Below, one piece after another: positions 3,998 to 23,091 of a stretch of DNA of 25,015 bases. This DNA is from a virus. Within the stretch, counting starts at the first letter, position 1. Every line of letters begins with the position of its first letter. Where the stretch lies: positions 1 through 25,015 of the IMG/VR virus record IMGVR_UViG_3300020190_000326, one strand, 5' to 3'. A program made the position numbers and the translations under genes. A model generated the notes under the pieces. That model saw only the letters and a list, made by a program, of their open reading frames with translations, was not told where the DNA came from and made no database searches.

Positions 3998-4005
3998 AAT
4001 AAATA
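3998..4005 (+). promoter_or_regulatory. Late promoter (AATAAATA)
   Basis: AATAAATA fits the NATAAATA late consensus of T4-like cyanophages. It begins next to the preceding stop and ends 16 bases before the ATG at 4022, so it suits late expression of the putative packaged protein. The stretch is A-rich, so a chance match is possible. Confidence 0.6.
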
Positions 4006-4021: not shown

Positions 4022-4270
4022 ATGCTAACATTCAGAGAGTTTTACGAAATCTGTGAGGGTAAAAAACCAGATACTCCACCACATGCAGTTCCTGGAACTT
4101 ACAAGAGGGACGCTGATGGCACCCAGACTTATACTCTTCAAAGATATGAGGGTCCATTAGGCAAACCAACAAAGAAAGAAGTTGATAAGTTAGTTGTTCA
4201 ACGTAGTGGTGGAAAAGAAGTAACAAAGAGACTGAAGAAGTTGGCAAAATCAGTCAAAAAGATTGACTGA
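4022..4270 (+). CDS. Putative capsid internal protein with targeting peptide
   Basis: An 82-residue lysine-rich protein. Its N-terminus MLTFREFYEICEG resembles the T4 capsid-targeting sequence of internal proteins (MKTYQEFIAEA in T4). Residues I10-C11-E12 then G13 fit the gp21 prohead-protease rule (I/L-x-E, cut before A/G/S). The mature part would be about 70 residues, ending in a basic helix (VTKRLKKLAKSVKKID). If correct, it is carried into the prohead, trimmed, and perhaps injected with the DNA. The late promoter just upstream fits. The targeting role is inferred from pattern only; a central GTYKRDADGTQTYTLQRYEG stretch has no family that I can name. Confidence 0.7.
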   Translation: MLTFREFYEICEGKKPDTPPHAVPGTYKRDADGTQTYTLQRYEGPLGKPTKKEVDKLVVQRSGGKEVTKRLKKLAKSVKKID

Positions 4271-4272
4271 AT

Positions 4273-4310
4273 TAAAGTTAGGATCGTCTAAAGTGTCCTA
4301 GTAATGTAAG
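4273..4310 (+). promoter_or_regulatory. Intergenic repeat element, copy 1
   Basis: This copy reads TAAAGTTAGGATCGTCTAAA, then GTGTCCTAG and a -10-like TAATGT at 4302-4307. The TAGGAT block sits exactly 17 bp upstream of that hexamer. The next ATG (4324) is 16 bases beyond it. Confidence 0.75.
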
Positions 4311-4323
4311 CACTCCATCAGTT

Positions 4324-4461
4324 ATGGAATCCTTTGACGACATTCAAGTTGAAGATCTCTCTTCCTTTGACTTTGTTGAAGAACTAAATGAAGGTCTCTT
4401 TGAGGAAGAGAGCGACGACAAATCTTTTAATGCTTTCTTAAACTCTAACTGGGACTTTTGA
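4324..4461 (+). CDS. Small very acidic protein
   Basis: A 45-residue frame, MESFDDIQVEDLSSFDFVEE then LNEGLFEEESDDKSFNAFLN. About a third of the residues are D or E and there is only one basic residue. It lies directly behind repeat copy 1. Strong acidity is a property of some phage DNA-mimic inhibitors, but nothing else here supports that role. Confidence 0.65.
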   Translation: MESFDDIQVEDLSSFDFVEELNEGLFEEESDDKSFNAFLNSNWDF

Positions 4462-4463
4462 TT

Positions 4464-4652
4464 ATGAACCCTGACACCTATACATTTGGCGGTGATGCTA
4501 TCACCTTCCTTGGTCTTGTTGGTGTTGTTTCGGCGCTTGTTATTGTTGTTACTGCTTTCCGCAGGTTCTTCAATTCTCCTTACAACATTCGTGTGACACC
4601 TTCGGAACTGACCACCGAAACCCCCACTGACCCCCAAACTCCTGTAAATTAA
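4464..4652 (+). CDS. Single-pass membrane protein
   Basis: ATG at 4464 follows the previous stop by two bases (TGATTATG). The 62-residue product starts MNPDTYTFGGDAITFLGLVG, has one membrane helix (about residues 12-32), and then a short basic stretch FRRFFNSP and a proline/threonine-rich tail. It probably inserts with the tail in the cytoplasm. Function unknown. Confidence 0.72.
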   Translation: MNPDTYTFGGDAITFLGLVGVVSALVIVVTAFRRFFNSPYNIRVTPSELTTETPTDPQTPVN

Positions 4653-4656
4653 GCAA

Positions 4657-4857
4657 ATGACTGAACAAATCCCTAACGTGCTGCCTCACATTCGTGAATT
4701 GAATGAAGCATGGCGCAAACAAGATTTTGTATTCACTAAACAACAGCAGGAGGAATACGATCTTTTGCTTGCTACTCGTCGTGAACGTGTGAAACAATTC
4801 TATGCTGAAGGACGTGTATTCAAAGGTTCCTATAAAGCAAAGGAAGAGGAGTTCTAA
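4657..4857 (+). CDS. Small hypothetical protein
   Basis: A 66-residue protein, MTEQIPNVLPHIRELNEAWR then KQDFVFTKQQQEEYDLLLAT and RRERVKQFYAEGRVFKG. It is predicted to be mainly helical and has a mixed charge pattern; I recall similar short proteins in cyanophages, with no known role. It is one of the short genes after the membrane protein at 4464. Confidence 0.78.
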   Translation: MTEQIPNVLPHIRELNEAWRKQDFVFTKQQQEEYDLLLATRRERVKQFYAEGRVFKGSYKAKEEEF

Positions 4858-4860
4858 ATA
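4853..4860 (+). promoter_or_regulatory. Possible late promoter variant (TCTAAATA)
   Basis: TCTAAATA differs from TATAAATA at one position and ends 25 bases before the ATG at 4886. The same variant precedes the HNH endonuclease gene. It overlaps the stop codon of the upstream gene, so chance is a real alternative. Confidence 0.4.
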
Positions 4861-4885
4861 CTAAAAAGAGTGTTTAGATACTAAA

Positions 4886-5503
4886 ATGAGAACCTTTCAG
4901 GAGTTTGTTTTGATTGCTGAAGCAGCATACGATGCTTCTTTTATGTCTGGAGCACAAGTCCGTAGGACTGGTGAAGGTGGTCGTATCGGTGCAGAACGCA
5001 AAAAGACTGCTCCTGAAAGGCGTAGAGTAAAAGCAATCGGGGGTGGACAAACTGCTCCCGCTAAAGAATACAAACCACGCTCAGATATTGGTCAACAACG
5101 CCAAGCATCTACAAGAACTCAGCAACCCGAACAAGAGCGTGGATCTGCTAGAGAAGCACAACTAGCAGCAGCAAAAGAAGAAAGAAGAAAAGCAGCACAA
5201 GCAAGAATTGCAGCAAAACAAGGTAAGAAACCTGCCGCAACAGCGGAGAAACCAACACCAACTGCATCACAACTTCTCTCTAAGAAAAAGAAAAAAGCAG
5301 TCTCTCCTGACTATAAACCAGCAAAAGCATCTGGACTTACAGCAAAGGAAAGAAATAAGCAAACCAGAGAAGGTGAAAGAATGCTCAGAGGTATAATGAA
5401 ACAGCAAGAAACTGAGAAGTATGAGAAGGCAACTGGTGAGAAACCAAAGGGTAAAGCAAAGACTAAAATCCTTGCTCACGTTGAGAAGAGGATGGCAAAC
5501 TGA
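4886..5503 (+). CDS. Putative basic capsid internal protein
   Basis: A 205-residue protein whose N-terminus, MRTFQEFVLIAEA, is close to the T4 capsid-targeting sequence MKTYQEFIAEA. I10-A11-E12 followed by A13 fits the gp21 protease site, the same residue position as in the protein at 4022. The rest is low-complexity and histone-like: about a quarter lysine or arginine, with much alanine and glutamine (AAAKEERRKAAQARIAAKQG, SKKKKKAVSPDYKPAK) and no cysteine or tryptophan. That composition suits a DNA-binding protein packaged with the genome. Family membership is unproven, and other MKTF-type N-termini in phages could arise independently. It is followed by repeat copy 2. Confidence 0.75.
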   Translation: MRTFQEFVLIAEAAYDASFMSGAQVRRTGEGGRIGAERKKTAPERRRVKAIGGGQTAPAKEYKPRSDIGQQRQASTRTQQPEQERGSAREAQLAAAKEERRKAAQARIAAKQGKKPAATAEKPTPTASQLLSKKKKKAVSPDYKPAKASGLTAKERNKQTREGERMLRGIMKQQETEKYEKATGEKPKGKAKTKILAHVEKRMAN

Positions 5504-5511
5504 CTTTGAAT

Positions 5512-5549
5512 TAAAGTTAGGATCGTCTAAAGTGTCCTAGTAGTATAAG
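5512..5549 (+). promoter_or_regulatory. Intergenic repeat element, copy 2
   Basis: Full-length copy with GTGTCCTAG spacer and TAGTAT at 5541-5546. The ATG at 5562 follows after 15 bases. Confidence 0.78.
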
Positions 5550-5772: not shown

Positions 5773-5810
5773 AGCACACCTAGAAGCGTCTCTAGGTGTG
5801 CTATTTTAGT
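5773..5810 (+). terminator. Strong Rho-independent terminator
   Basis: AGCACACCTAGA (5773-5784) pairs perfectly with TCTAGGTGTGCT (5791-5802) around a 6-base loop, giving a 12-bp stem followed by ATTTTAGTTTTT. It is the strongest terminator in the window and closes the unit started by repeat copy 2. Confidence 0.92.
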
Positions 5811-17483: not shown

Positions 17484-17508
17484 AGACTCTATCTACAGGG
17501 TCTTTTTT
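17484..17508 (+). terminator. Rho-independent terminator between convergent genes
   Basis: AGACTCT (17484-17490) pairs with AGGGTCT (17497-17503), seven pairs with one T-G, 6-base loop, then TTTTT. It ends the plus-strand array and overlaps the last codons of the minus-strand endonuclease gene. Confidence 0.7.
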
Positions 17509-18521
17509 ATTGTCTTTTCGTACCATTTGTAACCATAAGCATTACACCAAGTTTGTCCATTTTTTATACGTTGAATGTTATTTTTGATGTTAGCAACGCC
17601 ACTATAGTTACCATTACCTTTGATAAAGAATGATGCCTCACTCATACTACTAAACTCCACGATTTCGTTAGTTTTAATACTTACACCATAGACGGGTTTC
17701 TTTCTTTTTTCGTTGCTAATTGCAGCAATTTTTTTATAGTGTTCTATTGAATGTGCTTTTGTTGCTGGTGTCCAATCTGTTGGTTTTGATCTAAACAAAT
17801 ACCATCCAGATGCTTGTAATTTGTTATTGTCAGGACTGCGTATTGAAAGTAAAAGATTAGCATTTCTTTTGCGATTTCCAGATATTTCTTCTGCTGCATC
17901 TGCTTGTGACTTCCACATCTTTTTACGTCCTAATGTTGGATTGATACCATATACAACACCACGAACATTCACTCTGTTTTCTACTACTTTTGGTTGCTCA
18001 CCTTTCCATGCCCATCTATATCCAAGTGCTTGAAATGTTTTGCCTTTGATACAAAATATAATTGGCGATTTTCCCTTTTTATTGCCACAACTATCAGCAG
18101 CAATTCCTACGCTTTCATAGTCTCTAACCCATTCACCTTCTAATGTATAACAACTCACAGGTTTAGAATGTGGATGATTTGCCCAATACTTTTTTGGTTT
18201 CTTTACACCATCACCACCTAACGTAATGTTATATCCATTCTTACCACAAGTATCAAGTTTGTTTATCCAAAAGGTTTCACGTTCATTAACATCATCATCG
18301 TTACATTCTTCCAATACTCTAAACTTAAAGTTGTCTGCTCCGTATTTACATATGGCACGAACAATAGGCATAGAGTGAACCGAATTGTCCTCTTCTAAAT
18401 TATCCTTACTTCTTGCGTTTTGTAGGTGTTGCTTCCATCTATCATATGGGTTGGGTTGTGTAGTCTTTCCCACGTAGAGTTTGCTATTCTCAAGGTTGGT
18501 AATCGTATAGATGTATGCCAT
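17493..18521 (-). CDS. GIY-YIG homing endonuclease with repeated NUMOD-type modules
   Basis: The only confident minus-strand gene. The 342-residue product has an N-terminal GIY-YIG domain (MAYIYTITNLENSKLYVGKT, then RWKQHL; a likely catalytic E near ERETFWINKLDT at residue 80). The long C-terminal part has three DNA-binding modules of the NUMOD1/IENR type: KPVSCYTLEGEWVRDYESVG, VVYGINPTLGRKKMWKSQAD and KPVYGVSIKTNEIVEFSSMS, each followed by a helix and a tail such as GYRWAW or GYKWY. It is large for a free-standing phage enzyme, implying a long recognition site. It lies convergent to the gene array with its own late promoter, as expected for a mobile gene. Confidence 0.9.
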   Translation of the reverse strand: MAYIYTITNLENSKLYVGKTTQPNPYDRWKQHLQNARSKDNLEEDNSVHSMPIVRAICKYGADNFKFRVLEECNDDDVNERETFWINKLDTCGKNGYNITLGGDGVKKPKKYWANHPHSKPVSCYTLEGEWVRDYESVGIAADSCGNKKGKSPIIFCIKGKTFQALGYRWAWKGEQPKVVENRVNVRGVVYGINPTLGRKKMWKSQADAAEEISGNRKRNANLLLSIRSPDNNKLQASGWYLFRSKPTDWTPATKAHSIEHYKKIAAISNEKRKKPVYGVSIKTNEIVEFSSMSEASFFIKGNGNYSGVANIKNNIQRIKNGQTWCNAYGYKWYEKTIKKTL

Positions 18522-22689: not shown

Positions 22690-23091
22690 ATGCCTCTAGA
22701 AAGGGTAAGCCAAGGTTTTAAAGACATTAGTATGACTTTTCAGAGTAATCCTCTGAACAGTGACTTGATAGCACTTAAAAATGAGAGTGCTATATCACGT
22801 TCAATCAGAAACATTGTGTTTACCCTTCCTGGTGAGAAATTTTTCAATCCAAATTTTGGATCGAGAGTAACAAAAATGCTTTTTGAGAATGTTGATGAAA
22901 TTACAGCATCAAACGTTAGGGATGAAATTGCAACCTCAATTGTGAATTATGAACCAAGAGTTGATTTAACAAACGTTGTAGTGACCCCTGATTATGATAA
23001 TAACTCTTTTGATGTATTAGTACAATATCAAATTATAGGAGCCAATGTTCCTGCACAAGAATTACAATTTGTTTTGCAACCAACTAGGTAA
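22690..23091 (+). CDS. 25: Baseplate wedge protein gp25
   Basis: A 133-residue protein, the same length as T4 gp25 (132). It has the gpW/gp25 fold signature: FKDISMTFQSNPLNSDLIAL, then ALKNESAISRSIRNIVFTLP, GEKFFNPNFGSRVTKMLFE and the final strand pair VVVTPDYDNNSFDVLVQYQI. In T4 it forms the core of each baseplate wedge next to gp6 and gp53 and is needed for sheath polymerisation and contraction. It lies two bases before gene 6, behind a late promoter. Family identification is firm. Confidence 0.93.
   Translation: MPLERVSQGFKDISMTFQSNPLNSDLIALKNESAISRSIRNIVFTLPGEKFFNPNFGSRVTKMLFENVDEITASNVRDEIATSIVNYEPRVDLTNVVVTPDYDNNSFDVLVQYQIIGANVPAQELQFVLQPTR

Follow-up and report, generated by a model that had tools for sequence, protein, structure and literature searches.

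The closest described counterparts of the two genes analysed here are the internal proteins of phage T4 (IPI, IPII and IPIII), which carry an N-terminal capsid-targeting sequence (CTS). In IPIII, residues 4 and 7 drive targeting, while residues 8 and 10 drive processing; T4 propeptides are 10-19 residues long, and the protease gp21 cuts them after L/I-x-E (PMC9026906). Targeting and processing are separable, as an Asp at position 10 stops the latter but not the former (PMC9026906). T-even internal proteins have little in common except the CTS (PMC3012670), and IPI, IPII and IPIII each act as inhibitors of type IV restriction enzymes (PMC12373910). Re-read as a control, the T4 genome gave MKTYQEFIAE/A for both IPII and IPIII, with the site at residue 10, and MKTFKEFTSTTTPVSTITE/A for IPI, with the site at residue 19 (a slash marks the cut throughout); variation in the distance from F7 to the cut is therefore normal in T4. 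As a separate observation in the same genome, gp61.1 (AF158101 18966-19130, 54 aa, hypothetical) starts with MKTFKEFIKE/D and is a candidate for an unrecognised T4 head protein.

Two small genes with a putative targeting tag in a cyanophage contig

The window analysed in this study is a 25,015-base viral contig, whose DNA matches are restricted to Synechococcus phages and whose right end carries gp25- and gp6-type baseplate genes. On these two grounds, we assign it, as a genome fragment, to a T4-like cyanophage (Kyanoviridae); its T4-like character is indicated by the gp25-like gene. The two genes of interest, ORFs A and B, are surrounded by small accessory genes. The relevant features are as follows:

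3999..4005, + strand: late-promoter-like ATAAATA, starting 23 nt upstream of A (consensus match only)
4022..4270, + strand: ORF A, 82 aa, starting MLTFREFYEICEGKK; putative CTS and 80-residue head module
4022..4057, + strand: putative capsid-targeting propeptide of A, MLTFREFYEICE/G, predicted cut E12/G13
4854..4860, + strand: late-promoter-like CTAAATA, starting 32 nt upstream of B (consensus match only)
4886..5503, + strand: ORF B, 205 aa, starting MRTFQEFVLIAEAAYD; very basic, with a putative CTS and a long middle part modelled at low confidence
4886..4921, + strand: putative capsid-targeting propeptide of B, MRTFQEFVLIAE/A, predicted cut E12/A13
22690..23091, + strand: gp25-like baseplate wedge gene; baseplate wedge genes are annotated in the matching stretch of SynMITS9220M01

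The sequences that the initial annotation had seen just upstream of both ORFs were recovered as the two TAAATA-type boxes listed above. Such a box also precedes most relatives of B, and a third one is located 27 nt upstream of the gp25 gene (22690). On the whole + strand of the window, boxes of this type are not enriched (7 versus about 5.7 expected).

Several non-coding elements were observed around the two genes. The box upstream of B sits in an inverted repeat (4854-4882, CTAAATACT...AGTGTTTAG); at loci L023, L024 and L026 the repeat sequence differs yet pairs (ATAAATAAAC...GTTTATTTA), as judged by eye. An element of about 34 nt (AATTAAAGTTAGGATCGTCTAAAGTGTCCTAGTA) directly follows both A (4270-4303) and B (5509-5542), and a strong terminator-like hairpin, CACACCTAGA-AGCG-TCTCTAGGTGTG, lies at 5775-5800 between B and a helicase gene. 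Elsewhere in the window, two ORFs (544-1233 and 17493-18521) resemble GIY-YIG homing endonucleases, by eye only.

Conserved N-termini and the modular family of ORF A

Both ORFs start with a T4-like CTS pattern, as initially annotated. F4 and F7 are present in A and in B, and are followed at residues 10-13 by ICE/G in A and by IAE/A in B, in agreement with the I-x-E and subsequent G or A that had been assigned to these positions (G13 in A, A13 in B). The predicted site at residue 12 lies two residues beyond that of T4 IPII and IPIII and inside the T4 range of 10-19; A additionally carries a Tyr at position 8. Mature A is basic (pI 10.05) and lacks Cys and Trp. The earlier description of B as a 205-residue, K/R-rich protein without Cys or Trp is equally correct (pI 10.6 and 25% K+R for the mature part), and its designation as histone-like holds as a statement on composition and for nothing beyond that. 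The AlphaFold models are weak for both A (pLDDT 61, pTM 0.28, with a low-confidence helix at 4-11) and B (pLDDT 67, pTM 0.29, with predicted C-terminal helices at 153-183 and 190-204). Pfam, PHROGs and the PDB contain no match for A or B, and no homology of their mature parts to T4 IPI, IPII or IPIII was found (PHROG/Pfam for both proteins, a T4 profile search for B only).

Each ORF belongs to a conserved family. Relatives of A are found in viral contigs (72, of which 47 are distinct), with no relative in the isolate collection and no match in ten isolates. Their residues 1-12 are near-invariant, and F4, F7 and I10-x-E12 are retained in 47 of 47 distinct sequences (F4 is replaced by Y in one). 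Relatives of B occur in phages SynMITS9220M01, P-TIM68, S-SM2 and S-B05 and in 23 viral contigs, and their N-termini include MKTLGQFLAE/AYD, MKTLSQFLAE/ANYD, MKTFAQFVNE/VYD, MKTFQEFVSE/AYD and MRTFQEFVLIAE/AAYD. MKTLGQFLAE/A, from S-SM2, has the exact T4 spacing. A hydrophobic-x-E follows the aromatics in all 22 distinct relatives of B, while the position of the site ranges from residue 10 to residue 12. All aligned sequences have F7, and the pair at residues 4 and 7 is kept in 21 of the 22 as annotated (L4 in some); in the relative from P-TIM68 the aromatic pair is displaced by one residue. The B profile has no match in S-SM1, S-PM2, Syn9, S-CREM2 or T4. Where a locus of A leaves room, B is found at most 3 kb downstream in 25 of 51 cases.

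Members of the A family are built from modules: their 80-residue head stands alone, as in the window, or is extended by one or two added modules. Longer relatives continue after K-[I/V]-x-E, and an [I/V]-x-E is present at the junction between head and module in 31 of 31 distinct long forms, with nine different residues at x and almost no other [I/V]-x-E in these proteins. Many short forms, that of the window included, end with KKI[D/N/S/E], where the cut would fall. The invariable junction site and the short forms ending at the predicted cut point would suit a polyprotein of cargo modules that the prohead protease separates, an inference from the sequences of the family. The longer relatives, with their second I-x-E at the module junction, would then yield two or more pieces. 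To our knowledge, these junctions would be the first sign of a packaged polyprotein that is processed inside the head.

Frequency of the tag, depletion of cleavage sites and virion content

Inside proteins, the relaxed N-terminal pattern occurs about 0.0005 times per position; for the roughly 40 genes of the window, about 0.02 tagged N-termini are expected, while two were seen (P about 2e-4). A motif scan across cyanophages, suggested in the initial annotation, was run in nine genomes (2,052 genes) with any Met in the first 25 residues accepted as start. The motif proved enriched, with 26 N-terminal matches versus 0.97 expected at one start per gene, and even allowing three starts per gene leaves the excess far above chance. 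The 26 include a few unrelated proteins, the portal (MSKLFGFxIE) among them, and the intron endonuclease MKELIDFSSLDE also fits the relaxed pattern. None of the literature searched, which comprised open-licence papers only, was found to describe a CTS in a cyanophage. Further small tagged proteins of unknown function were noted in S-SM2 (91376-91804), contig G001 (4814-5134 and 156168-156389), S-CREM1 (137282-137611 and 138886-139161) and P-TIM68 (118770-119267).

If A and B meet a gp21-type protease, internal copies of its site may be expected to be rare. Mature B contains no [LI]xE in 22 distinct sequences versus a mean of 23 by shuffling (minimum 11). In the long A forms, with the junction masked, two residue pairs are found at the L/I-x-E spacing versus 11-68 at spacings 1 and 3-7, and T4 IPI-III have none versus 4-6 at other spacings. 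The whole proteome of Synechococcus phage S-CREM2 has no dip at that spacing (557 versus 446-547). As the sequences are related, these counts are not independent events; the contrast persists after reduction to 80% identity. In the spacing comparison, the single B count comes from P-TIM68, whose start was left untrimmed there but was trimmed in the shuffling test. The depletion in A and B implies exposure to the protease. The large S-CREM2 enzymes lack such a depletion, and we therefore do not claim it as a general property of tagged proteins. A gp21 homologue (Peptidase_S77, PF03420) is encoded on two contigs that carry both A and B (G001 and G003), and PF03420 is also present in four isolates carrying B; this evidence is drawn from relatives, the window being a 25 kb fragment.

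Our search turned up no proteome for any phage with A or B; virion data are available for other cyanophages. In S-CREM2, mass spectrometry of virions detected 52 of 219 ORFs according to Table 3 of the report (PMC10665884). Set against that table, the pattern ^M..[FYL]..F[LIVMF].E picks out five proteins, all of them virion-detected, versus 52/219 overall (Fisher P 6.5e-4), namely gp6 (SAM hydrolase), gp13, gp14 (APH/ChoK-like kinase), gp136 and gp154 (cytidylyltransferase). The residue sets of the best-scoring expression had been broadened after cyanophage sequences were seen; with ^M..[FY]..[FY][LI].E, fixed from T4 alone, three of three matches are listed as detected (P 0.013). Two other proteins in the list are the Cas9-like gp12, with LRFASFMAE/A beginning near residue 18, and gp15, which begins with MNFSEFNES. 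In the parts of the article available to us, its authors consider that the detected enzymes are possibly carry-over, not separated from virions at purification, and a targeting sequence is not mentioned there (PMC10665884).

The cytidylyltransferase T4-GC190 of S-SM1, detected in virions (PMC3037559), starts with MKKFSAFLNE/A. In S-SZBM1, the only enzyme detected in virions is again a cytidylyltransferase, S-SZBM1_140 (PMC9146016), starting with MRFRQFIIE/A, a tag one residue shorter; S-SZBM1_191 (MKSFKSFLSE/S) fits the motif but is absent from the 30 proteins detected (PMC9146016). The S-SZBM1 proteome thus gives mixed support for the tag as a packaging signal. In S-CREM2 gp12 and gp14 and in the T4-GC190-type proteins of S-SM1, S-SM2, G001, G003 and S-CREM1, a second short stretch after the tag is common to different enzymes (A-x-K-A-x-x-L-G-L...G-x-G-x-Y/W-x-D); it is possibly a loading or ejection element.

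Interpretation and comparison with known systems

We propose that A and B are CTS-tagged head cargo of a T4-like cyanophage, packaged and cut by a gp21-like protease, with a probability of about 0.78; both packaging and cutting are inferred. The CTS and prohead-protease reading of the initial annotation thereby gains support from the non-chance occurrence of the tag, from two unrelated conserved families and from site shifts that keep the hydrophobic-x-E, as well as from the gp21 homologue in relatives, the depletion of L/I-x-E and the virion detection of other tagged proteins. In the proposed mechanism, a short N-terminal helix with aromatics at positions 4 and 7 would dock A and B onto the prohead core during late expression. 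A gp21-type prohead protease would then cut after I-x-E12 and remove the tag, and the basic mature proteins may remain amid the packaged genome and be injected along with it. Injection, and with it a function in the host, is likewise an inference. By analogy with T4 IPI-III, mature A and B might act against a defence that the host mounts early, such as restriction; this is the least certain step, for which we see slightly less than an even chance.

Other explanations of the same data have to be weighed. A and B may be head-core or DNA-condensing structural proteins that are targeted and cut without having any role in the host cell, as would suit their very basic mature parts (pI 10.05 and 10.6), the largely low-confidence model of B with its C-terminal helices, and the contact of T4 internal-protein lysines with packaged DNA (PMC3012670). 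However, both genes lie among small accessory genes and are missing from many cyanophages, and the swapping of modules in the A family fits cargo better than core, which makes a purely structural role unlikely. It is also conceivable that the proteins reach the prohead and retain their tag, I-x-E12 being a poor gp21 site: the site is at residue 12 rather than 10, and in T4 targeting can be uncoupled from processing (PMC9026906). Against this, the hydrophobic-x-E is retained in all relatives while flanking residues vary, T4 IPI is cut as far in as residue 19, and the depletion of other sites implies that the proteins do meet the protease; we give little credence to an uncut tag.

Finally, the F-x-x-F helix might be unrelated to head targeting: an amphipathic start that arose by chance or convergence, or a peptide that docks onto some other complex. 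The pattern is short, and portal proteins and the intron endonuclease match its relaxed form. Such an origin would nevertheless leave unexplained the 26 matches versus about one expected, the five of five S-CREM2 proteins in the published virion list, and the fact that A, B and the T4 internal proteins specifically avoid L/I-x-E at other positions, and we consider it highly improbable. We thus retain the reading of A and B as tagged and processed head cargo.

A broader proposal can only be made tentatively, and we would sooner expect it to fail than to hold. In Kyanoviridae, a T4-like CTS may be the common tag by which a diverse arsenal is loaded and then injected as infection begins, comprising a SAM hydrolase, a kinase, a Cas9-like nuclease, a nucleotidyltransferase and basic proteins of the A and B type, with the A family as a modular polyprotein that the prohead protease would split at its I-x-E junctions into separate peptides within the head. 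The larger point is that the tag marks virion-detected enzymes in other cyanophages. With a recognisable loading tag, true head cargo would become predictable from sequence, including cyanophage virion enzymes that have so far been left as possible contamination. Unknown small genes of abundant aquatic phages would likewise turn into a testable list, probably of proteins acting in the first minutes of infection. The findings also suggest that the T4 loading system serves cyanobacterial as well as enteric phages.

Several other systems can be compared. The S-CREM2 proteins detected in purified virions (SAM hydrolase, kinase, Cas9-like nuclease and cytidylyltransferase) share the type of N-terminus with A and B; their mature parts are not homologous, and S-CREM2 carries neither A nor B. 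T4 Alt, an enzyme packaged in the head and injected, parallels the cyanophage enzymes with a CTS (kinase, SAM hydrolase and cytidylyltransferase), but has a different N-terminus (MELITELFDE), whereas A and B resemble no known enzyme. The ejection proteins of phiKZ and SPN3US and the Dar proteins of P1 are also head cargo that assembles with the prohead or is processed there, and that is injected together with the phage DNA; they differ in propeptides and protease motif (S/A-x-E in phiKZ, PMC9026906), and the present analysis shows no sequence relation. T4 IPI-III share most with A and B: aromatics at positions 4 and 7 followed by L/I-x-E/A, small basic mature proteins without further L/I-x-E, and several such genes per phage in variable gene regions. 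Unlike the T4 proteins, A and B have a tag of 12 residues (10 in IPII and IPIII, 19 in IPI), come from a phage of a different family (Kyanoviridae) with no sequence relation detected between the mature parts, and include long A relatives with a second site at the module junction. A and B are therefore best read as a variant, in cyanophages, of the internal-protein system of T4 rather than as a new kind.
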